A program made the translations under genes and the position numbers. From a virus: 27,925 nucleotides of DNA. This document shows positions 2,964 to 25,607 of this stretch, in pieces. The stretch is taken from the IMG/VR virus record IMGVR_UViG_3300003321_001333, positions 1 through 27,925 of that record; one strand, given 5' to 3'. The notes beneath the pieces are model-generated. The model did not search any database and was not told the DNA's origin. It worked only from the letters and a program-made list of their open reading frames with translations. Positions within the stretch are counted from its first letter, which is position 1; every line of letters starts with the position of its first letter.

Positions 2964-3986
2964 TTAGAATAAAATCCTTTTTTCCTGAATTTCAGGATTT
3001 TCACAACTCGGTCTTAATTGTTCATGCATTCGATACATTTCAATGAAGTCTTGAATTCCCATTTGTTTAATAGCCATGAGGTTACCTTCAGGGTAAGCAC
3101 CCATCATTCCGCCTTCTGTACAATTGATATAAAGTCCTGGTACTTGGAGTGCGATATAATCAAACCAATATTTGAAATTCATATAAGAAGGCCAGGTGAG
3201 GACCTTGTTGCCAAACACATCGACTCCCCGGAGGACATTCCCGAGTTTTTTATCGTATTTTGAATCCCAAGAATGAAACCGCTTATCATAGCCAAAAGAA
3301 AAATCAGCCCCCATAAACGCAATAGGGTTTGAACCCATGATTCCTTTGGAAATATAAAGGCAAGCCCCAAGGACATTACCGCCATTGCTAACATAGGTAT
3401 TAAACTCCTCAAGTCCTGCTACCGTTTGAATGTAAGCTTGATCAGGCACAGGAGCGTTAAAAAGATAGATCTCTCCTTGCCATTTTTCAAAGAGCTTAGG
3501 AGACGACCCAATGAAAGCGCAGAGTTTTTTATCTTTCGTTGAATCCCAGTATTCTTTTTCGCTCTTAGTACCGCCTTCTGCAATTTCCTCTAAAACAATT
3601 TCTCCAGCATCTAAAGACACATAGTAATCAATAGGAATATTTCGATCTTCGAAGAAATGATAATTATGAAGGCATGAAACGGCTAGGAGAGGACCACGGT
3701 CCTTAAGCTTATCCCCATTATACCCTAAAGAAGGTCCTGAACCGACAATGATGGCCGGCTTATAAGAATTAATTCCAAAAAGCTTTCCAATAGAATGATC
3801 TTTAAAATTTCCAAAGCGCTTCTTATTAGCTTTGACGTTTTCAATCCAAATTCCCCGCCAAGATTCAATAGTAATCGTGTCACTTGAGCATGCGTTTCCA
3901 TAAAGCTGCTGAGGGCTTGCAGGTGGAGTCTCAATGGAATTTTGATAATCTAATTCTAATGTAATTTTTCTTTTCTCTTTTGCCAT
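2964..3986 (-). CDS. DUF115/Maf-like glycosyltransferase (6-hydroxymethylpterin pyrophosphokinase MptE-like fold)
   Basis: 340 residues. The core matches the DUF115/Maf family: PAIIVGSGPSLGYNGDKLK (about residues 77-95), a following LLAVSCLHNYHFFEDRNIPIDYYVSLDAG, then the C-terminal signature GGNVLGACLYISKGIMGSNPIAFMGADFSFG (about 203-233). In flagellated bacteria Maf proteins transfer nonulosonic acids (pseudaminic, legionaminic) to flagellin; other members are pterin kinases or of unknown role. Here the gene sits inside the virion operon, after a large hairpin terminator (4015-4085) that separates it from the capsid genes. With a NeuB-type synthase and a GNAT elsewhere in the window, a sugar transferase acting on a virion or host surface protein is the favoured reading, but this is inference. 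Its N-terminal about 75 residues are unlike Maf and may be specific to phages. Confidence 0.75.
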   Translation of the reverse strand: MAKEKRKITLELDYQNSIETPPASPQQLYGNACSSDTITIESWRGIWIENVKANKKRFGNFKDHSIGKLFGINSYKPAIIVGSGPSLGYNGDKLKDRGPLLAVSCLHNYHFFEDRNIPIDYYVSLDAGEIVLEEIAEGGTKSEKEYWDSTKDKKLCAFIGSSPKLFEKWQGEIYLFNAPVPDQAYIQTVAGLEEFNTYVSNGGNVLGACLYISKGIMGSNPIAFMGADFSFGYDKRFHSWDSKYDKKLGNVLRGVDVFGNKVLTWPSYMNFKYWFDYIALQVPGLYINCTEGGMMGAYPEGNLMAIKQMGIQDFIEMYRMHEQLRPSCENPEIQEKRILF

Positions 3987-4014
3987 TTCTTTAAGTCCTA
4001 AAATTCAAAAAAAG

Positions 4015-4085
4015 GTGCGGGCTGGATATTTGTAAAGGGCTATCATTCCAATTGAGCCTAAAGCCCCACGCATAGGCGCCCGCAC
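4015..4085 (-). terminator. Large hairpin module with trailing poly-T between capsid and Maf-like genes
   Basis: On the minus strand an 8-bp arm GTGCGGGC is matched by GCCCGCAC 55 bases later, and the second arm is followed by CTTTTTTT. An inner GGGCT/AGCCC pairing is also possible. This fits an intrinsic terminator or attenuator after the decoration and capsid genes. The long interior is unlike a simple terminator. The arm and flank (GCGGGC-TGGAT on the plus strand) resemble those of the modules at 17353-17732. Confidence 0.55.
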
Positions 4086-4095
4086 TTTTAAATAG

Positions 4096-6967: not shown

Positions 6968-8920
6968 TTATGCCGCACCTTGTGGCTGATTTCCACCCCC
7001 TAATGGAGGAGGAATAAAAGCAGCCTGAGGTGTAGCCTTCACAGCTTGTTTGCCAGCCGTTTGTAACATCAAACCATGTTGCTGCATTTGCATCTGCATC
7101 TGCTGCATGGCTTGTTTCTTCTGGTTTACTCGCTGCAAAACCATTTCGTAATTTGGATAATCTAAATTTTTTAAGAGTTCCTCGTCATCTATGACGCCAA
7201 GTTCAAAAAGTTTGAAGCTTTTTTCTTCATTAGCGTCTTTTACAAAGGGAAGCCCAGAAGTCATCGAAACTCTGACATCAAAGTCGGCAATGATCTCGAT
7301 TTGTTTAGCCTGACCGTTTTCATTAATATGAGCTATTCGCTTTGTAATTGGATTGCCATTTTCATCCTGAGATTCAAGTTTTTCGACGTGGAAATAAAAA
7401 TATTTTTCAGCATTAGGATTTCCGGATACTCGAATTAAACGCGGCACTGAGTAAAATTGAAAAACTCGACTTAAATAAAGCTTTCCAAACTCCACTAAGA
7501 AAGCTTCTAGATTTCTAGCCTGAAGGCGTAGTCTCGTTTGTGCTGCTTGCTGTAAGCTTTGAATAGCTGAGTTGGCTGTTACATCTGTGGGCTCTACTCC
7601 TTTTGATAAATCAGTGCTCCCTGAGATGCTACCAAAGAATTGTTTATAACGGTCTAAAAGAGCCATGACAAACGGAGGAAGGTCAACCCCCGGCTCCCGC
7701 ACGATTTGAGTAACATCGTCCGCTTCCACGACTAACCCTGGCTTATTAAATAGATTATCCGTGTCAATATTGGCTGGCGATCCCACTTTCCAAATAGGAT
7801 TACTCATTAAAGCCATTGTGTCTAAAATGTGGGCTAAAATTTTATTTATACTCTTTTGAGGATTGTCTAGCTGTTCAACTTCACCCATTCCCCAAAACTC
7901 ACGCGGTAAAATATAATTTGTATATTTTGCGTATGGAAAAAGCCCATCCTCAAAATCAAATTCACCGTCGTCAAGTAAAACACCGCCTGCTACAACGATC
8001 TTTCGGCCATTTGGATATTTAAGCTTTTGAATAAACTTCTTTTTTGGCTCATTATTTTCGTCAAGTTTAGGCGTGCCATCATCGTTTAGCTCAATTTTCT
8101 CTTCTTCCTCAAAATCATCGTCTTTGGAATAAAGAGTAATCTTTAATGCCTGATTTTTGGCAATCGTGTCATAACCAGAAGGCCCTTCGATAATGAGTTT
8201 GCTATCGGTGGGACTCTTAAACATCACTTGATAGATGTCAGCTTTATCAGCTTGCGAAAAATCAATAATGTCAGCAGCAATAAATTGCGCTTTATCAGGA
8301 TACTCTTTTTTAAGCTCTACAATGTCAGTAGGAATAGCCTCAATCCAATACTTAGTACGCTTGCCGTTTACATCTCTTGCATTAGGATCAGGAAACTCAT
8401 AAAAGGAATCTGAAGATTCAAACTCAATTGAGCCTAGTCCCATATTAGCTTTTGAGTTAAAGCCTACGTAAGCTAAACCTGAGCAATAAATTTTTCCATC
8501 CTTTAAAACCTCTACAAGAGTCAAATCCCAATTATTATGTTCCCAGTCGTTTTCAAGAACCTTATTTAAAATATCGGCCAACTCTGTCTGCTGTGGAAGA
8601 GTCGACATAAACTCCACTTTGGGTCGAGAGTCTGTCAAAATTGGCACTTGAGATTCAATAGTATCAAAAATAAGATTTAAAACTTCACTTGACCTATAAG
8701 AGGGCCTGACTTCCTTCCACTGGCGCCCGCGGTACATTTTGTACCAATCAATCCAGCGGGCATCGTAGCGCTTTCGATATTTTTTAGCTTTGGAATATAG
8801 ATTATCAACTAAACGTAGAATCTTCTTTTCATCTTCTGAAGGATTATAGCCCGGTAGTCCGCCGTTCGGATTTTCGGCGCTCTGATGCTCTTGAAGGTAG
8901 GGGACTGTGATTTCGCTCAT
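6968..8920 (-). CDS. Portal protein
   Basis: 650 residues, a normal length for podovirus-type and SU10-like portals. It starts MSEITVPYLQEHQSAENPNG. Typical features are the N-terminal YDARWIDWYKMYRGRQW segment, VLNLIFDTIESQVPILTDSRPKV (wing/stem entry), a central PREFWGMGEVEQLDNPQKSINKILAHILDTM followed by long helices (SAIQSLQQAAQTRLRLQARNLEAF), and a low-complexity Gln/Met-rich crown/barrel tail (QAMQQMQMQMQQHG). The portal forms the dodecameric ring through which terminase packages DNA. The start overlaps the end of the 62-residue gene (ATGA). Confidence 0.85.
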   Translation of the reverse strand: MSEITVPYLQEHQSAENPNGGLPGYNPSEDEKKILRLVDNLYSKAKKYRKRYDARWIDWYKMYRGRQWKEVRPSYRSSEVLNLIFDTIESQVPILTDSRPKVEFMSTLPQQTELADILNKVLENDWEHNNWDLTLVEVLKDGKIYCSGLAYVGFNSKANMGLGSIEFESSDSFYEFPDPNARDVNGKRTKYWIEAIPTDIVELKKEYPDKAQFIAADIIDFSQADKADIYQVMFKSPTDSKLIIEGPSGYDTIAKNQALKITLYSKDDDFEEEEKIELNDDGTPKLDENNEPKKKFIQKLKYPNGRKIVVAGGVLLDDGEFDFEDGLFPYAKYTNYILPREFWGMGEVEQLDNPQKSINKILAHILDTMALMSNPIWKVGSPANIDTDNLFNKPGLVVEADDVTQIVREPGVDLPPFVMALLDRYKQFFGSISGSTDLSKGVEPTDVTANSAIQSLQQAAQTRLRLQARNLEAFLVEFGKLYLSRVFQFYSVPRLIRVSGNPNAEKYFYFHVEKLESQDENGNPITKRIAHINENGQAKQIEIIADFDVRVSMTSGLPFVKDANEEKSFKLFELGVIDDEELLKNLDYPNYEMVLQRVNQKKQAMQQMQMQMQQHGLMLQTAGKQAVKATPQAAFIPPPLGGGNQPQGAA

Positions 8921-9323: not shown

Positions 9324-9688
9324 ACACCCACATCTCCGCAGCCTACCCAGCCTTTATCTACTTCAGCCCAGGCCTGCTCTCTTTTTTCTTCTCGTTTTTG
9401 ATCAAAGTATTTGTGAAGGGATTCAGGCTTTTCGTTCCCGATTTCTTCAACGCCTTTTATTTTACAAAGCTCTTTTCGGTGAGAGCTATTTCGAACGATG
9501 CAACCAAGCCCTGGGTTGTATTCGGCGTGCTCTACTTTCGTGCCATTAAACCACACGCGAGTCGGTATAAACTCGCGTGTGGCAGGAGTTAGGCAACGAA
9601 GACAATTTTCAGGTGAATCCATTTCTTTTGCGGATTTCACCACATCAAATCGGTTTTCGCATTTTTGGCAATGATATTGATAGATCAT
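9320..9688 (-). CDS. FmdB-type zinc-ribbon phage protein
   Basis: 122 residues. The N-terminus has a zinc ribbon, C7-x2-C10 and C29-x2-C32 (CQKC, then CLRC) in the FmdB arrangement (MIYQYHCQKCENRFDVVKS). The middle contains TRVWFNGTKVEHAEYNPGLGCIVRN and the end HKYFDQKREEKREQAWAEVDKG, a pattern shared by a common phage family near portal and terminase genes. Function unproven, probably nucleic-acid or protein binding. The ATG at 9688 is the first after a non-coding inverted-repeat module. Confidence 0.75.
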   Translation of the reverse strand: MIYQYHCQKCENRFDVVKSAKEMDSPENCLRCLTPATREFIPTRVWFNGTKVEHAEYNPGLGCIVRNSSHRKELCKIKGVEEIGNEKPESLHKYFDQKREEKREQAWAEVDKGWVGCGDVGV

Positions 9689-9692
9689 AAAT

Positions 9693-9817
9693 GGCGCCCC
9701 TGGAGACCAGTTATTTCCCGGCTGTGGCCTCTCCGCGCGACGAATATTCGTTTCAGATGCGTTATTTCCTCATTAGGCGCAAAAATGCCGGGACAGATGC
9801 TACATGCATAGGGCGCC
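9693..9817. repeat. Non-coding module bounded by GGCGCCCCT / AGGGCGCC arms
   Basis: The 9689-9866 gap holds no gene. It is bounded by inverted GC-rich arms and contains the 12-bp palindrome ACGAATATTCGT (9740-9751). On the minus strand GGAAATAAC-type sequence occurs twice (GAGGAAATAACGCATCTG and CGGGAAATAACTGGTCTCC). It lies in front of the zinc-ribbon gene, so in leftward mRNA it would be a 5' leader of that gene. No poly-T terminator or known riboswitch was recognised. Confidence 0.45.
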
Positions 9818-9866
9818 GTTTGTAGCCCACGCTCTGTTTGTCGCATCGACAATCCTTGTTTAACCT

Positions 9867-10290: not shown

Positions 10291-11631
10291 TTAGTCTTGT
10301 TCAGCCCTAATAGATACAGGGCGCATTAAGCGTCTAAGTCTTTGCTCTTGAGTTTCGGCCCTTTTACTTGAGAAAGAAGTTTCTTCTGGCACAAATGGCT
10401 TAAGTCGATGGCCTGACCGATGTGTTTTGAGTGTAACAAATCTATTGGCACTCATGCAATGATCATTTTGACCAACAGGCAACTGATCTTCACTATCTTG
10501 ATCAGGGTGTAAGTCTTCCGGCTCAGGGTAATGATACGTCTCGTATTCATCAAGGGTCTGAGGGCTAGTGCCTGAGAAAACTTGATAGCGCCTTGTTTTA
10601 ATGAGCTCATAGTGTAAGTCAGTGCCTACTTGAATATCTTTTTCGGGCACTCCCACTGCTGGAATTCCATTTTGATTAAAGTATAAAATATTTTCAGGCC
10701 TCTCGTGGCCGCAATAAAATTGCCGGATGTTAAAGAGCGCCATCTTTTGCTTAGCTATTTGCATCTGCTCAGGCACTGTCATTCCGGTTTTGTAAAATTC
10801 CGATATCTGATAATGCTTATGGTCAGGAGTAATTGCGCGAACCACAATGACAAACGGCTCAGTGTGTCCCCAGTCGATTCCCGCATAGAAAACTGTACCA
10901 TTTGGAAGGCGTAACGGAGCACAGACGTTTGTAGTTTCCTCAAAGCAGTCATAGACAAGTCCCGCCATCTGGCCAAATTCACCGCCAAATAACATTTGAA
11001 AGCGTCTTGCGTCCATTTCAGCTTTAGCTTTAATGCGTTTAGATTCGTCATAGAGCTCATGATAAGGCGACTCCCAGCTTGAGGCCTCAATCAATTTAAA
11101 ATCGCGCTTTAAACCCTTTTTGTAGGGCTTAATATAGTCCTTCCAAAGCCAATTTAAAGAGTAAGGCGAAGTAGTCCCAAGCGTTCTTCCACCTTTAGCT
11201 AGGATTCTTGCTTTATAATTCTCCCAAAAATAAAGACGCATCTTACCCAGCTCATCAAGCCAGCCTGCCATAACATTTGGAATACCCACAATTGAGTCAG
11301 GATCGGTTTCAGTGCGTAAATAAACGCGCCGCTTATCTGGCATTTCAAAAACAGATTCCGTTTTATTATAGGTCCCTCGGCCCCGCAAAAGATCCAGGAA
11401 ATAGGGAGCCATACTTTGATTCATGATCTTATAGCTTGGAGAGCAAAGAAGAAAATTGACATTTGACTCAGTGCAATCGCTAATTTGTTTACCGATCCAA
11501 AGTGCGCCGCTCCTAGATTTTCCCCATTGAGTGCCAGTGATCGCAAGAGTCAAGGATTCTTTAGATGTAATTAAGTCATATTGTTTTTGAGAGTGCGCTT
11601 CAAAGACTTCTTGTGTTGTTTCAGCTGACAT
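10291..11631 (-). CDS. Terminase large subunit
   Basis: 446 residues from the ATG at 11631. The open frame extends further upstream, but that part reads through the tRNA-like element and is not protein. Motifs: Walker A-type GTQWGKS (about 33-39), Walker B-type AGWLDE (about 120-125), an RNase-H nuclease start FYAGIDWGHTEPF (about 240-252) and a C-terminal acidic active-site region ending NDHCMSANRF. The enzyme is the ATP-driven packaging motor and headful or cos nuclease. Only a weak AAAAGA precedes the start. The small subunit candidate is far away (17815-18201), an unusual separation. Confidence 0.9.
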   Translation of the reverse strand: MSAETTQEVFEAHSQKQYDLITSKESLTLAITGTQWGKSRSGALWIGKQISDCTESNVNFLLCSPSYKIMNQSMAPYFLDLLRGRGTYNKTESVFEMPDKRRVYLRTETDPDSIVGIPNVMAGWLDELGKMRLYFWENYKARILAKGGRTLGTTSPYSLNWLWKDYIKPYKKGLKRDFKLIEASSWESPYHELYDESKRIKAKAEMDARRFQMLFGGEFGQMAGLVYDCFEETTNVCAPLRLPNGTVFYAGIDWGHTEPFVIVVRAITPDHKHYQISEFYKTGMTVPEQMQIAKQKMALFNIRQFYCGHERPENILYFNQNGIPAVGVPEKDIQVGTDLHYELIKTRRYQVFSGTSPQTLDEYETYHYPEPEDLHPDQDSEDQLPVGQNDHCMSANRFVTLKTHRSGHRLKPFVPEETSFSSKRAETQEQRLRRLMRPVSIRAEQD

Positions 11632-11672
11632 GTCTTTTAGATATATCGCAAAAAGTGGAAAATAATAACATA

Positions 11673-11753
11673 TGGCTGGGACGGCGGGATTCGAACCACG
11701 CAGGAATCTCCCTAGCGACCGTAGGGCGGCTTTACCAGTTTGCCAACGTCCCA
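11673..11753 (-). tRNA. tRNA-like element, degenerate, Asp-type anticodon GTC possible
   Basis: On the minus strand a perfect 7-bp acceptor (TGGGACG/CGTCCCA), discriminator G and encoded CCA, a 3-bp D stem GGC/GCC with GG in the loop, a 5-bp anticodon stem CCCTA/TAGGG with 7-base loop CGGTCGC, and a TTCGAAT T-loop. Two oddities: position 33 is G rather than T, and the T stem pairs only with a bulged base. G73 with CCA and a GTC triplet at 34-36 point to Asp. The G33 and damaged T stem suggest a decayed or unusual gene. It starts one base beyond the stop of the MBL gene. Confidence 0.6.
11735..11748. repeat. Left copy of a 14-bp tRNA-derived direct repeat
   Basis: CCAGTTTGCCAACG, the D-arm/acceptor part of the tRNA-like gene, recurs in the same orientation at 15034-15047, with further imperfect matching (YYCCAA after it). 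The two copies flank the cargo genes. Confidence 0.6.
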
Positions 11754-11754
11754 A

Positions 11755-13002
11755 TCAAACATGTAAATAACATAACAAAAAATGCACATCCGGCTGATAA
11801 ATATTTGGTCGCCTGTCAAATTCAATGTGGCATCCGATCTCAGCATTATTCCAATGGGCTTTGCGAGTTAGGATTTGAAATAAAAGGGCAGGATCGAGGT
11901 TGGCATTTAAAAGAACCTGGTCTTTGTTACCAGCTAAACCCGCAAAATCAATGATCCAACGATTATTAATAACAACTTTACAATTCACAAGGCATCCGAA
12001 TCGCTCTTGAGCTTTTAAAACATTTCTCATAGCCTCTTGCATCAAACAATCAAGTTCGGGCTGTGCAGGAATGGGTTCCGATTCGTAGTCGTATTTTTTG
12101 GTAGCTAAAATATTTTGTAAATAATGCTTAGAATCCCTCAGTAAAAGCTCACGATTTGAGCTTTCTAACGTACTTAAATTTAGGCGTTCTCCTTCAGTCG
12201 GAGCCCAGTATCGGTGACCAGTCTGAAGATAATAATAGCGTCCAGCTTCTTCTGAATCAGTCGTACCAAGATATTCATTTTTTTCCCAATTTTTCCCACC
12301 CAACACATATTGGCCAGCAAAGGGCATCAGGATCTTAGGAGCTAAGATCTCACAAAGGCTAATCATATGATCTAAGTTTCGTTGAATGAGCCTGTGGTGT
12401 TCTAAATATTTTTCCTCATTGGTTAAGTTATTAAAACAAGAAGGATACGGCCCCGCCGCATTGTAATTGAGTTGCGCTACATCGAAGTGTTTGTAAATCC
12501 CTTTGAGTCTTTCAGCGCTTTTAAGATCTGGTGTATTATCATTTGTATTTAAAACGGTGTGCTTATCATCCATGACCACTAAAGCGCTATCAATTGTATT
12601 GCCAATAGCACAATCAAAAAACGGATGCTTAACAAAAGGCTTATACATCGTTAAGGTAAAAGGACCAAAAAAGCGTGATTCATTGTCTTTTAGTTTTACA
12701 ATATTCTTAAAACTTTCAAAACGCAGAAGCTTTTCTAAATAATTTGGCCCTTCGTCATCCAGAATGATAACAGGCTTATTTTTATCGAAATCTTTTAAGG
12801 TTTTTGGATCAAAATGATCAGGATGAAGATGACTAATGTACAATAGATCGTAATCAGCCACGTCTTGAGGTTTTGTTTTAAGAGGAGGGTAGTGATACCA
12901 AGACCCGTAGAATGCACCATCAATAAGCCAAGGATCACACAAGATTTTAAATCCATTTGATTCATAGATGCAGCAGGCGTTTGCGATAAAGGTGAGGTTC
13001 AT
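11755..13002 (-). CDS. MBL-fold metallohydrolase related to the catalytic domain of CMP-sialate hydroxylase
   Basis: 415 residues from the ATG at 13002, which overlaps the previous stop as ATGA. The N-terminus MNLTFIANACCIYESNGFKILCDPWLIDG and the metal motif SHLHPDHFD (H-x-H-x-D-H, about 59-67) define an MBL fold of the UlaG/CMAH type. NTNDNTPDLKSAERLKG and NYNAAGPYPSCFNN further resemble bacterial proteins found in sialic-acid-type gene sets. CMAH-like enzymes act on CMP-Neu5Ac, but they use an N-terminal Rieske domain and there is none here, so the reaction is open (hydrolase, hydroxylase partner, or moonlighting). It is the last gene of the synthase operon and abuts the tRNA-like element. 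Confidence 0.7.
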   Translation of the reverse strand: MNLTFIANACCIYESNGFKILCDPWLIDGAFYGSWYHYPPLKTKPQDVADYDLLYISHLHPDHFDPKTLKDFDKNKPVIILDDEGPNYLEKLLRFESFKNIVKLKDNESRFFGPFTLTMYKPFVKHPFFDCAIGNTIDSALVVMDDKHTVLNTNDNTPDLKSAERLKGIYKHFDVAQLNYNAAGPYPSCFNNLTNEEKYLEHHRLIQRNLDHMISLCEILAPKILMPFAGQYVLGGKNWEKNEYLGTTDSEEAGRYYYLQTGHRYWAPTEGERLNLSTLESSNRELLLRDSKHYLQNILATKKYDYESEPIPAQPELDCLMQEAMRNVLKAQERFGCLVNCKVVINNRWIIDFAGLAGNKDQVLLNANLDPALLFQILTRKAHWNNAEIGCHIEFDRRPNIYQPDVHFLLCYLHV

Positions 13003-13304
13003 TTGCACTCATCTTGAAGTTTTTTGAGCATCCTTTTTCCCCTATTAATATCTTTTTTAGACCTCCCCCAACTTTTTAGTTCATTTTCCTGATCATGCGT
13101 CATATTGGCAATCTTGTAAGGAGGAGATGAGATTTTTGAAAGACATTGTAAACAAAGAGTGAGGCCAGGAATTTTTGACCTTTTTAAAACTGTACTCTTA
13201 GCAATCCAAATTTCACAAAGACATCGTTCGCATTTTTCAAGCGAAGAACCAGCGCCTGGATTTTTCTGATCAATTTTTCGTTGGCAAAGGTAAATTTGAT
13301 TCAC
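12999..13304 (-). CDS. Small zinc-ribbon protein of the nonulosonate cassette
   Basis: 101 residues. Cys pairs CERC (near residues 25-28) and CLQC (near 52-55) form a probable zinc ribbon; the C-terminus is basic and helical (SKKDINRGKRMLKKLQDECK). The start is GTG at 13304 with AGGAGGATGT in front, and the junction with the synthase is GTGA. Its placement between synthase and MBL genes implies translation with them, perhaps as an assembly or electron-transfer helper. No family recognised. Confidence 0.65.
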   Translation of the reverse strand: MNQIYLCQRKIDQKNPGAGSSLEKCERCLCEIWIAKSTVLKRSKIPGLTLCLQCLSKISSPPYKIANMTHDQENELKSWGRSKKDINRGKRMLKKLQDECK

Positions 13305-14338
13305 ACATCCTCCTGAGTCAACGCATCACCTATTTGGATCTCGTTTTTTGCTTTCCTGCCTTCCACTTCATGGATTCTAAACGGCGTAAAAAAACTAGGA
13401 GAATCTCGCAAAGACCGATAGATGCCGAAATTACTGTTTTCTCTGAAAACTTCTCCAACTTTAATGTCTTTTGTCGCAATGAGCCTCCTATTGTGGCGTA
13501 AGATCATGGCTTGTTCTGATTGTGTAAGTAGTTCTCGATTCTCTTTTCCGCGTATGGCAGATACCATTTGGCTAAACTGTTGAATATTAAGACTGTGAGA
13601 AGAATCTGGGCTATCACACTCAATAGCTTTGAAATGCTTTTCGATAACACAGGACCCAAGGGCTGCAGCCAGAGTAGGAATGTTTCGGATATCCAAAGAA
13701 TGATCAGAATAGCCCACCAAAGTATTAAATTTTTGTCGATAATAGGAAACATTTTCTAAATAAATCTCCTGTGCAGGGTAGCTAGATACGCAGTACATGA
13801 GGACTAGTGGCGTAAACCAGACATCGGGATTACCCATTCGCCCTCCTCCTGAATAACCAAAGATATTTAACGATCTTCCGATTTCCTCAAGCGTATGTCC
13901 TCCAGTACTTATAAAAACTGGCTTATCTATTTTAGCTAGCTTTTCAAGCATTCTCACATGACACATTTCAGCTGAAGCTAGCTTATGGATATTGACGTAA
14001 GGATCAACTTCCTCAATTAGCTCAGGGGAGAAGGCTGAGCACATGAATTCGATGCCGATAGAATCAGCACGGTTTTTTAGATGAGGTAGCCAATCAAGAG
14101 ATAAAATTGAATCAGCAAGTTTTGATAACCCCCAAAAGACCTTTTCTCCGTATTTCATTCCATAAAGGGATTCATAATCAAACGCCTGAAACTTAACCGC
14201 ATCAGCGCCCGCTTTTTTTGCCGCTTCAATACTTGCTAAACAATCATCAAGCGTACGCCAGTTAGAACCAACTTCGGCGATGATAAAAGGCTCACAGCCA
14301 TCTCCAATTTCTAAATCATCACGAATCTTAATTTTCAC
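13301..14338 (-). CDS. neuB: NeuB/PseI-type nonulosonate synthase
   Basis: 345 residues from the GTG at 14338 (MKIKIRDDLEIGDGCEPFIIAE). This start matches family N-termini; a TTG at 14368 would add ten residues. The N-terminal TIM-barrel holds FIIAEVGSNW, AAKKAGADAVKFQAFD, KPVFISTGG, YCVSSYPAQEIYLENV, GYSDHS and CVIEKHF, the metal-binding and catalytic blocks of NeuB. The C-terminus is an antifreeze/SAF domain (RRLIATKDIKVGEVF, ending IGDALTQEDV). The family condenses PEP with an N-acetyl-hexosamine to give a nine-carbon acidic sugar. The usual NHNG after the first strand is replaced by NWRT, so substrate may differ. The gene heads a three-gene operon. Confidence 0.85.
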   Translation of the reverse strand: MKIKIRDDLEIGDGCEPFIIAEVGSNWRTLDDCLASIEAAKKAGADAVKFQAFDYESLYGMKYGEKVFWGLSKLADSILSLDWLPHLKNRADSIGIEFMCSAFSPELIEEVDPYVNIHKLASAEMCHVRMLEKLAKIDKPVFISTGGHTLEEIGRSLNIFGYSGGGRMGNPDVWFTPLVLMYCVSSYPAQEIYLENVSYYRQKFNTLVGYSDHSLDIRNIPTLAAALGSCVIEKHFKAIECDSPDSSHSLNIQQFSQMVSAIRGKENRELLTQSEQAMILRHNRRLIATKDIKVGEVFRENSNFGIYRSLRDSPSFFTPFRIHEVEGRKAKNEIQIGDALTQEDV

Positions 14339-14527
14339 AGAGTTTCTGTTACAGCGGTCAAAAAACAATTACAAGGTCCTAGGCTAAATTATTTCTCATT
14401 ATATAAACTTTATCATTAAGATTATTATAACTTTTATATTTCTCTCTCATTTACAAATTTCTTCTTGCGCTTTGGACGTTGGCCTTGTAGTTCACTCAGT
14501 TGCTCGCTTTTGAGCAAAGGAGAAAAT
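14339..14527. promoter_or_regulatory. AT-rich divergent intergenic region with hairpin at the start of the plus-strand genes
   Basis: Between the divergent cargo operons lies a very AT-rich segment (14390-14450), likely to hold promoters for both directions, though no consensus -35/-10 pair stands out. At 14500-14517 the hairpin TTGCTC/GAGCAA sits immediately before AAAGGAGA of the plus-strand gene and could modulate its translation. Confidence 0.4.
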
Positions 14528-14881
14528 ATGCAATTAAGAACTATCGTTCCTGTTATTTCACTTTTAGCCTTAAGCAATTTTGCAATTGCCGAAAGCTTTG
14601 ATGACTCGCAAATCACTGACTCAGTCATGAATATTGATGACGGAAGTATTGATGCTAATCAGCCAGGGCAATTTAGAGGAGAAGGAGAACATCAATGCTG
14701 GCATGAAAGATTCATTGGCTATAAGTGCACTAATTTTGGCGTAGGCTATACCGATTGCAACAATGCTTTTTTTAGACTAAAGCAAGACAACTGTTGCGAT
14801 AAGCTTTATTGGCAAGGTAAACGCCTAGAAGGTGCTATTTCGATCGATTTTAAAATCACAAAGTGCACGCGAATGAGATAA
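14528..14881 (+). CDS. Secreted Cys-rich protein (moron candidate)
   Basis: 117 residues from ATG 14528, preceded by AAAGGAGAAAAT. The N-terminus MQLRTIVPVISLLALSNFAIA is a signal peptide, with a likely cut at AIA-ES. The mature part is acidic at first, then holds seven Cys (QCWHER, YKCTNF, TDCNN, DNCCDK, TKCTR), enough for three or more disulphides in a periplasmic or exported domain. It opposes the direction of the virion genes and pairs with a membrane microprotein, typical of lysogenic-conversion or superinfection-exclusion genes. No family recognised. Confidence 0.75.
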   Translation: MQLRTIVPVISLLALSNFAIAESFDDSQITDSVMNIDDGSIDANQPGQFRGEGEHQCWHERFIGYKCTNFGVGYTDCNNAFFRLKQDNCCDKLYWQGKRLEGAISIDFKITKCTRMR

Positions 14882-14892
14882 GGAGTGAAAAT

Positions 14893-15024
14893 ATGTGGGA
14901 GCTTGGTGGTCTTATCATCCTTTACTTAAAAAAAATTGGCCGTCCAGTTCCCATTTTTATTATCTTCTTATTGATTGCTCTAGGACTGATTCTAGGAACG
15001 ATTGGAAATCATATCTTAAGATAA
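14893..15024 (+). CDS. Single-span membrane microprotein
   Basis: 43 residues: MWELGGLIILYLKKIGRPVP followed by the hydrophobic IFIIFLLIALGLILGTIG. AGGAG lies eight bases before the ATG and overlaps the preceding stop region, so it is translated together with the secreted Cys-rich gene. It ends at the start of the hairpin at 15025. It could act in the inner membrane with the secreted partner; function unknown. Confidence 0.65.
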   Translation: MWELGGLIILYLKKIGRPVPIFIIFLLIALGLILGTIGNHILR

Positions 15025-15055
15025 ATTTGGCTGCCAGTTTGCCAACGCTCCAAAT
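15025..15055. terminator. Hairpin between convergent genes containing the second tRNA fragment
   Basis: ATTTGG and CCAAAT flank an interior that includes CCAGTTTGCCAACG (15034-15047), identical to part of the tRNA-like gene at 11673-11753. It lies precisely between the stop of the plus-strand microprotein and the stop of the minus-strand gene at 15058. It may act as a bidirectional terminator. It looks like the 5' end of a decayed tRNA copy. Confidence 0.5.
15034..15047. repeat. Right copy of the 14-bp tRNA-derived direct repeat
   Basis: The same 14 bases as at 11735-11748, in the same orientation, about 3.3 kb apart. Together the copies bracket MBL, zinc-ribbon, synthase and the two plus-strand envelope genes. 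Confidence 0.6.
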
Positions 15056-15057
15056 AT

Positions 15058-15507
15058 CTAGACTTCTTCTTCGCCTAAGTTTTCCACAATAATTAATAAG
15101 CCCTTTAATTGCTCGGCCAGATATTGGTTTTCCCTTCGGAGATTTTCCCCGATTCCATGCATCTCAGTAAAATTTAATGCGGCATTTATACCTAACTTAA
15201 GACGCGTAATATATAATTCCCTAGCCTTTTCGAATCCGGCTATAAAACCATCTTCATAGGCCTCCACTGTTTCTACATTTTCTTCAGATTGCCATTGGTC
15301 ACCTGGCCATAGAATTGAGAAATAATCATTTGTAAATTCATCACGTAATTTTTCCTTAAGCTTCATACTTCCTTTTCGCCTATCAAAGCGGTAAACGCGT
15401 CTTATCATCTCATTATCCCATCCCGCTTCTTTCATTATCAAAATGAAATCAAGGAGACAAAAGCGGGCATTTTTTCTTATCTTGTGACCACATGCTGCGC
15501 ATTTCAC
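15058..15507 (-). CDS. Small phage protein with N-terminal zinc-ribbon-like segment
   Basis: 149 residues from GTG 15507, preceded by GGGGTGAGAA. It opens KCAACGHKIRKNARFC (C-x2-C, then a third Cys), like half of a zinc ribbon, followed by a helical charged region (KAGWDNEMI, then EDGFIAGFEKARELYITRLKLG). A second ATG with AAAAGGAAGT upstream lies at the MKLKEKLRDEF segment, so the protein may also be made from there, or two genes may have fused. Unknown function; early-region accessory gene. Confidence 0.6.
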   Translation of the reverse strand: MKCAACGHKIRKNARFCLLDFILIMKEAGWDNEMIRRVYRFDRRKGSMKLKEKLRDEFTNDYFSILWPGDQWQSEENVETVEAYEDGFIAGFEKARELYITRLKLGINAALNFTEMHGIGENLRRENQYLAEQLKGLLIIVENLGEEEV

Positions 15508-15625
15508 TTCTCACCCCCCGACGCTCTTTTTCTAAAATAATGTCTAATACAGTATTTTATGAACCAAAACATTTCTATTCCACATTTGAACTGACCTTTG
15601 CGTCTGATACGCCAGAGATTCCAGG

Positions 15626-15820
15626 TCATTTGCGTGCCCGGATATTATGGGCAATCACCTTACCATGTTTGCTCGCATCAGCAATCTTGGCGCATTGCTC
15701 GCGCTCTTCTAAAACTGCGGCTACCACTTCTTTAGAAAAGCTTTCACATAAATCAAGGGCAGTCCTAGATTCCAAATAGTGCTTTAAAAATATTTGTTTA
15801 AGATTTTCTTTCAGCGGCAT
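15626..15820 (-). CDS. Small hypothetical protein
   Basis: 64 residues, mostly helical: NLKQIFLKHYLESRTALDLC, then EVVAAVLEEREQCAKIADA. The segment EEREQCAKIAD is common in small phage proteins of unknown role. It overlaps the upstream 59-residue gene. The gap 15508-15625 after its stop contains no open reading frame of note. Confidence 0.6.
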   Translation of the reverse strand: MPLKENLKQIFLKHYLESRTALDLCESFSKEVVAAVLEEREQCAKIADASKHGKVIAHNIRARK

Positions 15821-15990
15821 TTTTCATCCTTATTAGGAATATCTTTTTTTTGTTTCTCTTCATGATCTATAAAATAATAGCAATCGCAAACAGAACATTT
15901 GCCCTTTGGAGCCCAGTGGCGGCAAGTATGTTTCGCGCATTCTTTGCATTGAGTTATAAATCTTTTACCATGCGGACATTCAGGCGTCAT
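15811..15990 (-). CDS. Cys-rich microprotein (zinc-ribbon-like)
   Basis: 59 residues with Cys at PECPHG, TQCKECAKHTCRHW, GKCSVCDCYY and a closing KCR: eight or nine Cys including two C-x2-C pairs. The ATG at 15990 overlaps the HNH stop as ATGA and the stop overlaps the next start, so it is embedded in the translation chain. It likely binds one or two zinc ions. No family recognised. Confidence 0.7.
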   Translation of the reverse strand: MTPECPHGKRFITQCKECAKHTCRHWAPKGKCSVCDCYYFIDHEEKQKKDIPNKDEKCR

Positions 15991-16592
15991 TTCTTATCAC
16001 CTGGCATAGATTCGAGTTCATTTACCTCTTGGAAAAAGCATTCCGGATGTAGCGTAGGTCTATATTTTCGTAACAACTCACATGCCATTTTAAGTCTCCT
16101 AGCCAGTTCCTCTTTTTCCTTATGCGTGTCTAGATATAATTTCTGATATCTATCGCGATCGGCTTCTAATTTTGCTAGCCATTCCAATCGGCCTTTGCTG
16201 CTAGCATCTTGCATATTCTCTTTATGAGTGCCCAAAAATAAATGGTCTGGGTTTACACATCTAGGATTATCGCACTGATGACAGATTTCTTTACCCGGTT
16301 GAACCGGTCCTTTCCAATATTGATATGACCATTTACACGCTTTTATTTTTTTACTTCCGTACCAAAAATTTGGATAAGCTGTTTTTGATTTCCAAACCCA
16401 ACACCCGTTAGGTTCTTTATTAAGAAGCTCAAAAAAACGTTGTTCTGGAGTTTTAATCTGGCGGCCCCAGTTTGAACAAATTTTTGAACAATATTTCCCT
16501 TGGCCTCTCATTACAGAGTAATGAAAAGCCATAAAGTCTTTTTTGCAATAAGCACAAACAGAAGGTATCGATCTTTTATTTTTACCGCCCAT
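15987..16592 (-). CDS. HNH endonuclease, free-standing homing type
   Basis: 201 residues. An N-terminal Cys cluster (CAYCKKDF, then GKYCSKICSNWGR) is followed by the HNH core: GCWVWKS, ACKWSYQYWKGP, EICHQCDNPRCVNPDHLFLGTHKENMQD (about 85-132) and KGR. This is the ICHxCxNPxCVNPxHLxxGT pattern of phage HNH homing nucleases, with the zinc Cys and catalytic His. The C-terminus is coiled. AAAGGGACAA precedes the ATG. It is not within an obvious intron and probably spreads at intergenic sites. Confidence 0.8.
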   Translation of the reverse strand: MGGKNKRSIPSVCAYCKKDFMAFHYSVMRGQGKYCSKICSNWGRQIKTPEQRFFELLNKEPNGCWVWKSKTAYPNFWYGSKKIKACKWSYQYWKGPVQPGKEICHQCDNPRCVNPDHLFLGTHKENMQDASSKGRLEWLAKLEADRDRYQKLYLDTHKEKEELARRLKMACELLRKYRPTLHPECFFQEVNELESMPGDKK

Positions 16593-17137: not shown

Positions 17138-17332
17138 CTAATCTCCATGTAGCACATGATGCCCAATTGCATAGGCAAGCCCTAAAATAATTGAGATCCC
17201 TAGAAACCCAACAATAATCTCAGCCCCATTGATGTTAAATCGATCCTGAAGCATATGGATTATAAAGCCGGTGAGCAACAAACTCGCTATCGTGAATGCC
17301 ATTACTAAGAGACCAACGATTGTTTCTTTCAA
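17138..17332 (-). CDS. Two-span membrane protein
   Basis: 64 residues from a TTG at 17332, preceded by AGGAGATGGA. The only nearby ATG closes after two codons, so TTG is the plausible start. Two hydrophobic segments (VGLLVMAFTIASLLLTGFII and ILGLAYAIGHHV with its preceding IIVGFLGIS) make it an inner-membrane protein. It lies directly downstream of the non-coding tract 17333-17814. Function unknown; a holin or immunity role is possible but unsupported. Confidence 0.55.
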   Translation of the reverse strand: MKETIVGLLVMAFTIASLLLTGFIIHMLQDRFNINGAEIIVGFLGISIILGLAYAIGHHVLHGD

Positions 17333-17352
17333 TCCATCTCCTAAACTTTATT

Positions 17353-17444
17353 AGCGCGGGCCATAAGGCCTTTTATAAAAAAGGGTACCACCCTAATCTA
17401 AGTTCGGCTTCCGTCTGTGGTTTCAGATTCTCTGTACCCGCGCC
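17353..17444. ncRNA. Inverted-repeat module 1 of the non-coding tract (candidate structured RNA)
   Basis: Plus-strand arms AGCGCGGGCC and ACCCGCGCC enclose the interior. Inside are TCTG-TGGTTT-CAGA (17414-17427) and a GGGTACCACCC element. On the minus strand the module begins GGCGCGGGT and ends GGCCCGCGCTAA, as in modules 2 and 4. It lies in front of the membrane gene at 17138-17332. Confidence 0.4.
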
Positions 17445-17479
17445 TTATTTATGCCGAAGCATAAACATTCATAAATTTC

Positions 17480-17555
17480 AGCGCAGGCCGGGTTTATTTC
17501 CGTAGAGTTTAGCACCCGTTTATCCAACTCCAGCAAAAGTCTAGGCACCCGCGCC
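17480..17555. ncRNA. Inverted-repeat module 2 (candidate structured RNA)
   Basis: Arms AGCGCAGGCC and ACCCGCGCC; one arm base differs from modules 1 and 4 and leaves a G-T pair on the minus strand, a change that keeps pairing in RNA. The minus strand also has an inner CGGGT/ACCCG stem. Tract length is tRNA-like (76 bases) but no T-loop is present. Confidence 0.4.
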
Positions 17556-17557
17556 TA

Positions 17558-17628
17558 TTCTGGCCAACCCTTTACCGTGTCAGGTCCGTTACGGCTTTAC
17601 GATGATCCGGCATCATTGCTCACCAGAA
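17558..17628. ncRNA. Inverted-repeat module 3 (different arms)
   Basis: TTCTGG and CCAGAA enclose 59 bases that include an ATGAT/ATCAT hairpin with a CCGGC loop (17602-17616) and CCGTTACGG. It follows module 2 after two bases and so continues the array, but its arms are not related to the GC-rich ones. Confidence 0.35.
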
Positions 17629-17633
17629 AACTG

Positions 17634-17670
17634 CCTAATATGTTCTAATATTAGGACTTTTGCCTAATAT
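17634..17670. repeat. CCTAATAT repeats with hairpin
   Basis: CCTAATAT (17634-17641) pairs with ATATTAGG (17648-17655) across a six-base loop, and a third copy of CCTAATAT stands at 17663-17670. The set could be a protein-binding site or a rho-independent signal on the plus strand. Confidence 0.5.
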
Positions 17671-17673
17671 ATC

Positions 17674-17732
17674 AGCGCGGGCCTGGATTGCTAAGCCAGC
17701 TTTCGTCCGGATTAGGCTAGAGAACCCGCGCC
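17674..17732. ncRNA. Inverted-repeat module 4 with poly-T on the plus strand
   Basis: Arms AGCGCGGGCC and ACCCGCGCC, the latter followed by TTTTT on the plus strand. The interior (CTAAGCC, GCTTTCGTC, GGATTAGGCTAG) aligns in part with module 1 (CTAAGTTCGGCTTCCGTC). Shortest member (59 bases). Confidence 0.4.
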
Positions 17733-17734
17733 TT

Positions 17735-17811
17735 TTTATCTCATGGCCTGGACCGCCCAACTAGGTCGACGACTAGTGTCCCGATGGCAGCTTATCGCCG
17801 CATGAGATAAA
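17735..17811. ncRNA. Inverted-repeat module 5 next to the DUF5681 gene
   Basis: A perfect 11-bp pair, TTTATCTCATG and CATGAGATAAA, encloses 55 bases with an ACTAG/CTAGT stem (17760-17777). It begins three bases beyond the stop of the DUF5681 (small-terminase-like) gene, so it may serve as its terminator, an RNA element, or part of a packaging site. Confidence 0.4.
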
Positions 17812-17814
17812 CTT

Positions 17815-18201
17815 TTATTCCTCTTTTTTCTTAGTGTCACTAGCCAAAGGCGGCGTCACCACTATTTGAGTAGCAACAGAATGCTCTACTTGATCTTTTA
17901 CTTTGCCAAGTAGGCGCATCAAAATAGCCTCTAATCTAATGGCATCAGCCTTCCTAATTCCTTCTTTCACAATAGAAGCAACCCAGCGCTTAATATTGTC
18001 ATCATGAGGAGAATCAACAATTTCAGAAAGATCTGCTTTTTTGCCAAAAAGTAACAAGTTGCATAAATAGCTATAGCTTTGCGCGTCAAGCTTAGCGATC
18101 TTAGTGCGCTCTCTTGCTCGCCTAGAGCCACCTTTTGGATTTCCGCTTTGGCCCTTTTGCCAACGCTTAGGTTTTAAATTTGGATAGTCTTCTAGCGCCA
18201 T
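17815..18201 (-). CDS. DUF5681-type protein, probable small terminase subunit
   Basis: 128 residues from the ATG at 18201 (MALEDYPNLKPKRWQKGQSG). The KRWQKGQSGNPKGGSRRARER segment is the DUF5681 signature, widely found in phage proteins encoded where small terminase is expected. The rest is helical and ends acidic. A GTG at 18234 would extend it by 11 residues, but AAGGAG lies between the two and favours the ATG. The gene lies about 6 kb from the large subunit and next to the repeat tract, which might hold the packaging site; this is inference. Confidence 0.6.
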   Translation of the reverse strand: MALEDYPNLKPKRWQKGQSGNPKGGSRRARERTKIAKLDAQSYSYLCNLLLFGKKADLSEIVDSPHDDNIKRWVASIVKEGIRKADAIRLEAILMRLLGKVKDQVEHSVATQIVVTPPLASDTKKKEE

Positions 18202-18240
18202 AATTTCTATTGCCGCTCCTTGTACCAATGACACAGTTTA

Positions 18241-22193: not shown

Positions 22194-23303
22194 TCATTGT
22201 TTTAAAGTGCCAGTATGTAACGAAAGCTTCGCGTCACAGATCTCTCTAAATTGCTGCGAGGTCTCTGTCTTTAGGTGGTTGTAGATTTGATCGATCGTTT
22301 CAGGAGTTGCTCCAAAGATCTGACTTGCACTGCCTTTCGGAAGTCCTGCTGCTAATTGATCAGTGATTGCCACGTGTCTAGTATCGTGAAAACGCGCTAC
22401 AACTCCAAGAGCTTTCTTAGCTTTCTTCCAAAAATATTTATTATCTTGCTGTGGTTGGCTCCAGTTTACCGGCCTGCCTGGCTTATTCCTAATTATTCTA
22501 GGAAAAATATAAGGACCTTGTGCATCGTCATAAGCTTTTTTAAGAAGCGGAAATACGCTTGCTGGAACGGGAATAGAAACCTTTCGCTGCATTCGGGTTT
22601 TAATTCTAAATGGGTCAAGATTAATTTCTTTGTGAATCAAATCAATCTCCTGCTTTTGAAGATGTAAAATTTCTGACTTTCGCATTCCCATCGTCCAAGC
22701 CATCAGAAGCTGCAGATAGAATTTTGGCTCTGATTTACACCAGTCAAGTAGAGCTAAAATATCATTTTTATCAATAGGTGGGCGACCCAAAGCTTTTTTT
22801 ACTATCGTTAACTCTAAATCTTTCCCTTCAAAATAGCGTTTCACATCTCCAGATGTATAACCAAGGCGCAGGGCCTGAATTAGGTATCTTCTGTCATGCT
22901 GAAGTAACCGTCCGGGAGTTTCTATTTGCTGATCAAGCTTATATTTCGCCCAGAGTTTTTTATAGTATTTCTCAAACGAAGCTATTTCAGGACAATGCTG
23001 ATTAAACCACGGCCTTAAATGCTGGATAGAATATTTTGTATTTTCGTAAGTACCTTTTGATTTAGGCCGCTGGACATCAAGGAGATCATCAAAAAGTTGA
23101 TCAAAACTATATTTCTGTCGTTTAGCCATTTCTGGTTCTTTTCGTATCTTATCAGCTTCTTCTTTTGCCAAGCCGATCTTATTGGTCTTGAGGCTTTTCT
23201 CGATAAACTGACCTGAGACTGTACCTCGAAAATAGTAGGTACCTTTTTTGCTTTCCGTATTCTTAAAAATATACTCATAATTGGTCTCTTTAAATCTTTT
23301 CAT
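22194..23303 (-). CDS. int: Tyrosine integrase
   Basis: 369 residues. An N-terminal arm-binding and SAM-like part is followed by a catalytic domain with the first Arg in MGMRKSEILHLQK, the HxxR box HDTRH (about 306-310) and the active Tyr in IYNHL (about 341). This matches lambda-type tyrosine recombinases that integrate at tRNA genes. It overlaps the excisionase gene (ATGA) and its 3' end borders the attP arm repeat. Confidence 0.9.
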   Translation of the reverse strand: MKRFKETNYEYIFKNTESKKGTYYFRGTVSGQFIEKSLKTNKIGLAKEEADKIRKEPEMAKRQKYSFDQLFDDLLDVQRPKSKGTYENTKYSIQHLRPWFNQHCPEIASFEKYYKKLWAKYKLDQQIETPGRLLQHDRRYLIQALRLGYTSGDVKRYFEGKDLELTIVKKALGRPPIDKNDILALLDWCKSEPKFYLQLLMAWTMGMRKSEILHLQKQEIDLIHKEINLDPFRIKTRMQRKVSIPVPASVFPLLKKAYDDAQGPYIFPRIIRNKPGRPVNWSQPQQDNKYFWKKAKKALGVVARFHDTRHVAITDQLAAGLPKGSASQIFGATPETIDQIYNHLKTETSQQFREICDAKLSLHTGTLKQ

Positions 23304-23506
23304 ACAGTAAAACGTTCCCCGAATTTTTTGGTCCGCTCTTCTAAAAACCTATCTAAATCTTCTGGACGATAGCCCACGCGCTTACCTAATTTGACCCATG
23401 CAGGACCTCTTCCATGGCACCTACTCCGCCATTTCTCTAACGTCTGGGGGCTTATTACCCTCAAATACTCCGCCGCCTCTTTCGTGTTTAAAACTTTCTT
23501 TTCCAT
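23300..23506 (-). CDS. xis: Excisionase-like HTH protein
   Basis: 68 residues with a MerR/AlpA-type winged HTH: LNTKEAAEYLRVISPQTLEKW (about 6-26), a Gly/Pro turn and KLGKRVGYRPEDLDRFLEER. Encoded just before integrase and overlapping its start, as expected for an excision or directionality factor that bends attP. Confidence 0.75.
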   Translation of the reverse strand: MEKKVLNTKEAAEYLRVISPQTLEKWRSRCHGRGPAWVKLGKRVGYRPEDLDRFLEERTKKFGERFTV

Positions 23507-24508: not shown

Positions 24509-25489
24509 TTATTCCTCCTCATCTACTCTCCCAGTAGAAAAATTGATCTCTCTCTGATACTGCTCGCAAAACTTCGAAACTGGACAATAAGACTTGCATC
24601 TCACACTCATGCCAGGACGTCGAACCACTGACAGATTCCTATCAAACCCTACGTGCATCCTTGCTTCCTGCTCAGTGTTGTAAAGTTTCAGCGCTCTTTT
24701 CATTCCTTTTTTCATAACAGCCCATTGAGTAGGGCGCGCCCAGCGCTCTTCTGGAGTGCACTCAGGGATTCTCTGTCTAGCTTGCAGATGTAAAATGACT
24801 CTCTCTCTTAAGAAGGCATAGGCTTTCTCAGGCTGCCATAATGGGATTGGAATATTGACAATCTGCGCTTGCGGGTAAGTGGGGTCGCGATCAGCTTCCA
24901 TTTTTGACCAATCCCGAAGGATGGCGATCACCTGGAGCTTTTCTACTTTATGATTGTGGTGTCTCAGTAACACCGAATAGCAATTAAGCTGCTGCGTCCA
25001 CTCTGAGATATCACCTTTGACTACTTTCCAAACAGAAGTGACTTTGTAATCAGTTAAAATGCTGCTTTCTTCATAGACATCCATCCCGCCTGAGATCTTT
25101 AGGCCGTCTATTTCTATAGAAAGCCGTCTCTCTGCTATAGCTTCTCGGTTAGCTCTTTCTAAAATGGTGTGAATCGACTGGCCGAGTAACGACCAGATTC
25201 TATCGCTTGCATCTTCGACAATTTCATCCCGATGCTGCTCTTCTAAGATTCCTATCTTAGGAGGCCGTAAAAGCCCTGTAATCGTGAAATCGGCGTCTCC
25301 CTTAGAGTAAGGGTCATTCTTTACAGCATCGATAATTGCTTGTGGCAGCTCTGCTTTATTCGTGAGAGCCGGACGCTTTTTTTCGCCTTGATCAAAGGAA
25401 TTCTTTTTAACCGGAAAATCCCAATTCTTTTTTTCAGCCTGAGGAGACTCCACAAGGGATAAAGTTGGCTTGTTTTCCAACTTAGTCAT
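24509..25489 (-). CDS. RecB/Cas4-like PD-(D/E)XK nuclease with Fe-S-type Cys
   Basis: 326 residues from ATG 25489, preceded by GGGGGGACTTT. GQSIHTILERAN, then SGGMDVYEESSILTDYKVTSVW (D then DYK) and QLNCYSVLL are the nuclease motifs of the RecB/Cas4 family. Cys occur at RIPECTPE and CKSYCPVSKFC, spaced as in AddB/Cas4 proteins with a 4Fe-4S cluster. Likely a 5'-3' exonuclease for recombination or replication. It overlaps the small gene at 25482. Confidence 0.75.
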   Translation of the reverse strand: MTKLENKPTLSLVESPQAEKKNWDFPVKKNSFDQGEKKRPALTNKAELPQAIIDAVKNDPYSKGDADFTITGLLRPPKIGILEEQHRDEIVEDASDRIWSLLGQSIHTILERANREAIAERRLSIEIDGLKISGGMDVYEESSILTDYKVTSVWKVVKGDISEWTQQLNCYSVLLRHHNHKVEKLQVIAILRDWSKMEADRDPTYPQAQIVNIPIPLWQPEKAYAFLRERVILHLQARQRIPECTPEERWARPTQWAVMKKGMKRALKLYNTEQEARMHVGFDRNLSVVRRPGMSVRCKSYCPVSKFCEQYQREINFSTGRVDEEE

Positions 25490-25607
25490 AAAGTCCCCCC
25501 AGACGCTTTGCCTGCCCACTGCTATTAGGGTAAAGGGAAATTCCGGAGCAGTGGCCTACTTTGCAGACAAATTCAAACTTGATGTCGTCCATAACTAAAA
25601 AACGCAT
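25482..25607 (-). CDS. Small Cys-containing protein
   Basis: 41 residues (MRFLVMDDIKFEFVCKVGHC, then GISLYPNSSGQAKRLGGL). Either ATG 25607 (AGGTGTGT upstream) or the ATG five codons later may start it. It overlaps the nuclease start by eight bases. C-x4-C may bind metal. Unknown. Confidence 0.5.
   Translation of the reverse strand: MRFLVMDDIKFEFVCKVGHCSGISLYPNSSGQAKRLGGLYD

Follow-up and report, generated by a model that had tools for sequence, protein, structure and literature searches.

What occupies the roughly 480 bases of an uncultivated virus genome that lie between a DUF5681-like gene and a short open reading frame (ORF), and that seem to hold no gene of their own? The record in question, whose full 27,925 bases are referred to here as the window, encodes a P22/SU10-type portal, a large terminase and a tyrosine recombinase, and its genes lie mostly on the minus strand, which is also the coding strand at the locus (17333-17814). 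The flanking genes are a 139-aa DUF5681-like gene (17815-18234) and a 64-aa ORF (17138-17332). The original prediction, made from the sequence, was that of a gene-free array of hairpin-bounded modules, which could be a cluster of structured RNAs, a packaging (pac/cos) region or the relics of repeated insertions. The absence of genes was borne out on the coding strand, namely, no minus-strand ORF of at least 50 aa was found over 17333-17814; a 69-aa plus-strand ORF (17296-17505), called mechanically, extends into the region.

Organisation of the array

Read on the minus strand, the array is made of three tandem copies of one composite, in which a hairpin, A, is followed after 2, 2 and 3 nt (copies I, II and III, respectively) by a second hairpin, B (Table 1). 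Hairpin B has a 9-bp GC-rich stem closed by GGCGCGGGU/GCCYGCGCU, and the motifs AGCGCRGGCC and ACCCGCGCC each occur three times without mismatch in the window, always within the array. The arms foreseen by the original prediction, namely those of three GC-rich modules, a TTCTGG/CCAGAA pair and an 11-bp perfect pair, are all present and correctly placed. The unit, however, had been misread: these modules pair up as A-B composites, which escaped notice because the hairpin at 17448-17465, which on the minus strand immediately precedes the module at 17353-17444, had been overlooked. Judged from its sequence, therefore, the array represents three copies of one two-domain element lying on the coding strand.

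Table 1. Coordinates of the A-B composites and of their domains in the window.
Feature	Position	Strand	Description
Copy I, whole	17811-17674	-	A 17735-17811 + B 17674-17732
Copy I, domain A (77 nt)	17735-17811	-	11-bp closing stem UUUAUCUCAUG/CAUGAGAUAAA
Copy I, domain B (59 nt)	17674-17732	-	stem GGCGCGGGU/GCCCGCGCU
Spacer hairpin between copies I and II	17648-17670	-	AUAUUAGG-loop-CCUAAUAU, seen in the sequence
Copy II, whole	17628-17480	-	A 17558-17628 + B 17480-17555
Copy II, domain A (71 nt)	17558-17628	-	stem UUCUGGU/GCCAGAA
Copy II, domain B (76 nt)	17480-17555	-	stem GGCGCGGGU/GCCUGCGCU, one G-C to G-U change
Copy III, whole	17465-17353	-	A 17448-17465 + B 17353-17444
Copy III, domain A, minimal hairpin	17448-17465	-	UUUAUGC-UUCG-GCAUAAA, 18-base perfect hairpin
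Copy III, domain B (92 nt)	17353-17444	-	stem GGCGCGGGU/GCCCGCGCU

Recurrence in other phages and evidence for pairing

Conservation and covariation in related phages were among the tests named by the original prediction, and both speak for a cluster of structured RNAs. First, IMG/VR was searched with a pattern of the two B arms; the matches listed were mostly GC-rich coding sequence, and a few AT-rich contigs were followed. Among the matches listed, the A-B pair was found in two other phage contigs, L022 (33.5 kb) and L244 (8.8 kb), the latter via the A-B junction, and these were also the only contigs matched by loosened A-B patterns. In L022, domain A (UUUAUCUCGGA...UCCGAGAUAA) is followed by B and then by a tRNA-Asn gene, which starts 6 nt past the copy; in L244, domain A reads UUUAUCUCAU...AUGAGAUAAA and is again followed by B. 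Order and spacing of A and B are the same in the window, L022 and L244, and the arms UUUAUCUC/GAGAUAA of domain A in copy I recur in both contigs. A fourth record, L019, a relative of the window phage which has several early genes in common with the window at 43-71% identity, carries a lone B at a different site, upstream of the homologue of window gene 23300-23506.

The L022 phage gives only weak matches to the window and the terminase of L244 belongs to another family, phrog_38, so that the A-B pair is present in three phage backgrounds; by sequence comparison, the L022 and L244 phages appear to have almost no recognisable proteins in common with the window phage. In all four records the element is intergenic and reads in the same direction as the genes on either side. 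The genes found 3' of it are a 64-aa ORF in the window, a tRNA gene plus an 87-aa ORF in L022, a MazG-like NTP pyrophosphohydrolase gene in L244 and a small HTH-like gene in the L019 record. Outside these records the element was not encountered: blastn of the array against 50,697 phage records gave no match, blastn in phage records returned nothing like the element (the L022 copy matched only through its tRNA), and the same was true of plasmids. The B-arm pattern found no convincing non-coding match in 84,980 species genomes, as judged by GC content and flanks rather than ORF by ORF, and looking for more A-B composites with general stem descriptors did no better than on shuffled sequences. B-arm matches in L057, L017 and L063 were dropped, since they lie within or against coding sequence.

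Second, five composites, namely, the three of the array plus those of L022 and L244, were compared after aligning their arms by hand. The stem of A shows compensatory, both-side changes at five of its seven pairs. In this alignment 97.5% of the cells pair, a figure that falls to 41-53% when partners are slid by 1-3 columns, and that is to be read knowing that only the arms were included, with loops swapped for a fixed linker, and that the alignment was thus built to fit the stems. Since the counts are of sequences and three of the five composites come from one array, the independent compensatory events are few. The stem of B, being fixed in sequence, cannot show covariation: it is nearly invariant, with one G-C to G-U change (copy II) and one mismatch (L244). 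Taken together, these stems suggest, at the level of sequence, that A must pair while its sequence is free to change, and that B is almost fixed.

Third, the pairing is strand-specific. The B stem has constant G-U pairs at both of its ends on the coding strand only, their counterparts on the opposite strand being A.C; likewise, the G-T pair noted by the original prediction in a changed arm holds on the minus strand, but the plus strand gives A.C. On the same coding strand, the A hairpin of copy III is closed by a cUUCGg loop, which is a stable RNA tetraloop. Wobbles alone, however, do not decide between an RNA and a DNA hairpin.

Predicted folding was less telling. The sense-strand loops fold slightly better than shuffles and the antisense loops do not (Stouffer -2.1 versus -0.4), yet folding energy does not single out the region, as the sliding-window mean z is -0.45 in the array and -0.14 over the entire minus strand. 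The case for the element rests on recurrence and compensatory change, not on folding energy. Loop lengths in the array range from 4 to about 120 nt, and loop contents are unrelated among copies, the only pair near 0.015 being domain B of copy I and that of L019. No conserved loop core could be proven among the copies by descriptor, pseudoknot or shared 6-mer tests: a B-fold with a pseudoknot and a GGAA core was left unproven, since its descriptor could not tell the copies apart from shuffled sequence, pseudoknot scores of about 0.05 were obtained in three modules only, and a CGGAAG-like 6-mer common to the copies reached about 0.03.

Based on the recurrence of A-B, the compensation in A, and the coding-strand wobbles and cUUCGg loop, the array probably consists of a transcribed structured-RNA element, as the first of the predicted possibilities had it.

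Candidate functions and competing explanations

The element does not fall into a known RNA class. Rfam 15 models, including ribozymes, STAXI, GOLLD and riboswitches, gave no match up to an E value of 10 over window positions 17300-17850, and only chance-level matches in L022 and L244 apart from the tRNA gene of the former. ARAGORN, in default, low-threshold and mitochondrial modes, detected no tRNA or tmRNA in the array, its one permuted-tmRNA call (low threshold) being in L244 only; a tRNA or degenerate tRNA was rejected on this basis. The STAXI motif of phage-like or mobile contexts is likewise a small folded unit in tandem, mostly as three copies (PMC2864571), but it is a repeated pseudoknot, whereas here the unit is two adjacent hairpins. 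The best reading of the sequence is a previously undescribed two-hairpin RNA element of phages, with a putative function.

The closest functional parallel is the put RNA (putL/putR) of phage HK022, in which two adjacent stem-loops of an operon RNA, without a dedicated protein encoded alongside, bind the zinc-binding domain of the RNA polymerase beta' subunit and suppress termination (PMC9378689). The A and B stems, as read from the DNA, would likewise give two adjacent stem-loops, 2-3 nt apart, in the transcript of a phage operon, again with no dedicated protein encoded alongside. put RNA, however, is about 70 nt long, is present once per early operon near the promoter and has conserved bulges (PMC9378689), whereas the element spans 113-215 nt, is repeated three times in tandem in mid-operon and has stems without long-range conserved loops. 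Similarity to putL/putR was looked for only through blastn of the array against the 50,697 phage records, which gave no match.

With this parallel in mind, the element would be transcribed with its operon and act as a folded RNA, whose B stem and A/B junction may be bound by one factor, such as RNA polymerase, a ribonuclease or a phage protein. A docking platform is suggested by the presence of a sequence-fixed stem beside a pairing-fixed stem, with free loops. Since the loops vary freely in content and length, and since each of these phages has different genes beside the element, this would probably be a generic platform rather than a gene-specific switch, and a gene-specific riboswitch is unlikely for the latter reason. 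Within a long unidirectional operon, the element may act in cis, either on transcription complexes as they pass or on the processing or stability of the mRNA. By analogy, such a cis mechanism in the manner of put RNA would be the likeliest one, which we nevertheless propose tentatively. It is also tempting to speculate, with still less assurance, that the element is a portable phage module, with a fixed B and a freely evolving A, which tolerates almost any loop content, controls operon transcription or RNA fate, and has been amplified in tandem and become common to otherwise unrelated phages. To our knowledge, few portable RNA elements of phages have been described, most of them from cultured coliphages. 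Conserved closing stems with free contents would suggest that some factor recognises a short RNA helix, and a tandem array with natural loop variants makes this directly testable.

Alternatively, the copies may be stable trans-acting small RNAs cut from the operon transcript, similar to the extra stable RNAs of phage tRNA clusters, where the fixed B stem would be a mark for processing or protein binding and the loops a variable working part, either targets or decoys. The tandem copies with different loops, the tRNA gene directly 3' of the L022 copy, and the different downstream genes, which argue against gene-specific control, would all fit. Against this, the copies in the window and L244 have no adjacent tRNA, and one A loop is just UUCG, which leaves no space for a working part, at least in domain A. 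Phage tRNA regions encode stable RNAs as well as large ornate ones such as GOLLD, structured and without an assigned role; the element resembles them in being structured and, in L022, in lying beside a tRNA gene, but it is much smaller. We find this alternative possible yet doubtful, and lean, on the analogies available, towards a cis role first, with stable trans-acting RNAs close behind.

An improbable but still not negligible explanation is that the hairpins work as single-stranded DNA, as integron-attC-like or MITE-like structures or ends for a recombinase or transposase, their contents being passive cargo. In its favour, single-stranded DNA can form G.T pairs as well, and fixed arms with unrelated contents look cassette-like; moreover, copies lie at different places in related phages and the window encodes a tyrosine recombinase. 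The compensatory changes in A, including the minimal UUCG-loop hairpin, and the co-direction with transcription in all four records speak against it. No target-site duplication or empty site was established, and the flanks of the array are AT-rich and show no clear duplication. Integron attC sites resemble the element in length and in being folded, their arms being conserved around a variable middle, but they have gene cassettes between them, whereas no coding-strand ORF of at least 50 aa separates the copies here, and the unit includes a covarying hairpin A. The copies are alike in stems and not in contents, and the predicted relics of repeated insertions were thus not substantiated.

That the array is a packaging (pac/cos) region used by the gene next to it is highly improbable, even though calling that gene small-terminase-like is supported by context, a large terminase being found immediately or almost immediately beside DUF5681 in all eight loci tested: no A-B pair was found in 35 DUF5681 loci nor a DUF5681 gene in the other element-bearing records, so that the two do not travel together, and the array of the window lies 6 kb from the large terminase and has a strand-specific pairing signature. 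One DUF5681 locus (L153) has a lone B-arm match, which looks like chance.

Other structures in the window and in L244

Two further closed modules were seen in the window. A 137-nt module at 9687-9823, with a 13-bp stem ACAAACGGCGCCC/GGGCGCCAUUUAU (minus strand) and strong internal folding, lies between two head-region ORFs; the equivalent sites of the relative L266 and of L267 showed no hairpin like it. A 79-nt module at 4011-4089 has 12 closing pairs followed by a T run, and is terminator-like with an unusually long loop; as a further copy of the element it was set aside, given this T run and the different hairpin present there in L266. In addition, a 19-pair minus-strand hairpin (25437-25504) lies at the start of a 336-aa gene (24509-25519); in a relative, the first 43 residues of this gene's product show no conservation. 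A tRNA gene at 11673-11753 (Asp by ARAGORN; Rfam, 33.8 bits), whose anticodon is preceded in the loop by G instead of the usual U, overlaps the start called mechanically for the large-terminase ORF (10291-11754); the terminase probably starts 3' of the tRNA, as relatives align only from about residue 43. Between this terminase and the DUF5681 gene, genes for an HNH endonuclease, a NeuB-like synthase and a metallo-beta-lactamase-fold protein (11755-16592) are probably inserted cargo, since the two flanking genes adjoin in other phages. In L244, a run of GGGTACGGG/GGGTCCGGG-type repeats (3010-3110) is found directly upstream of the A-B element, and the large terminase (7003-8805) is interrupted: its two ORFs flank a third, of 124 aa and no known family, which may represent an intron or an intein-like insertion.
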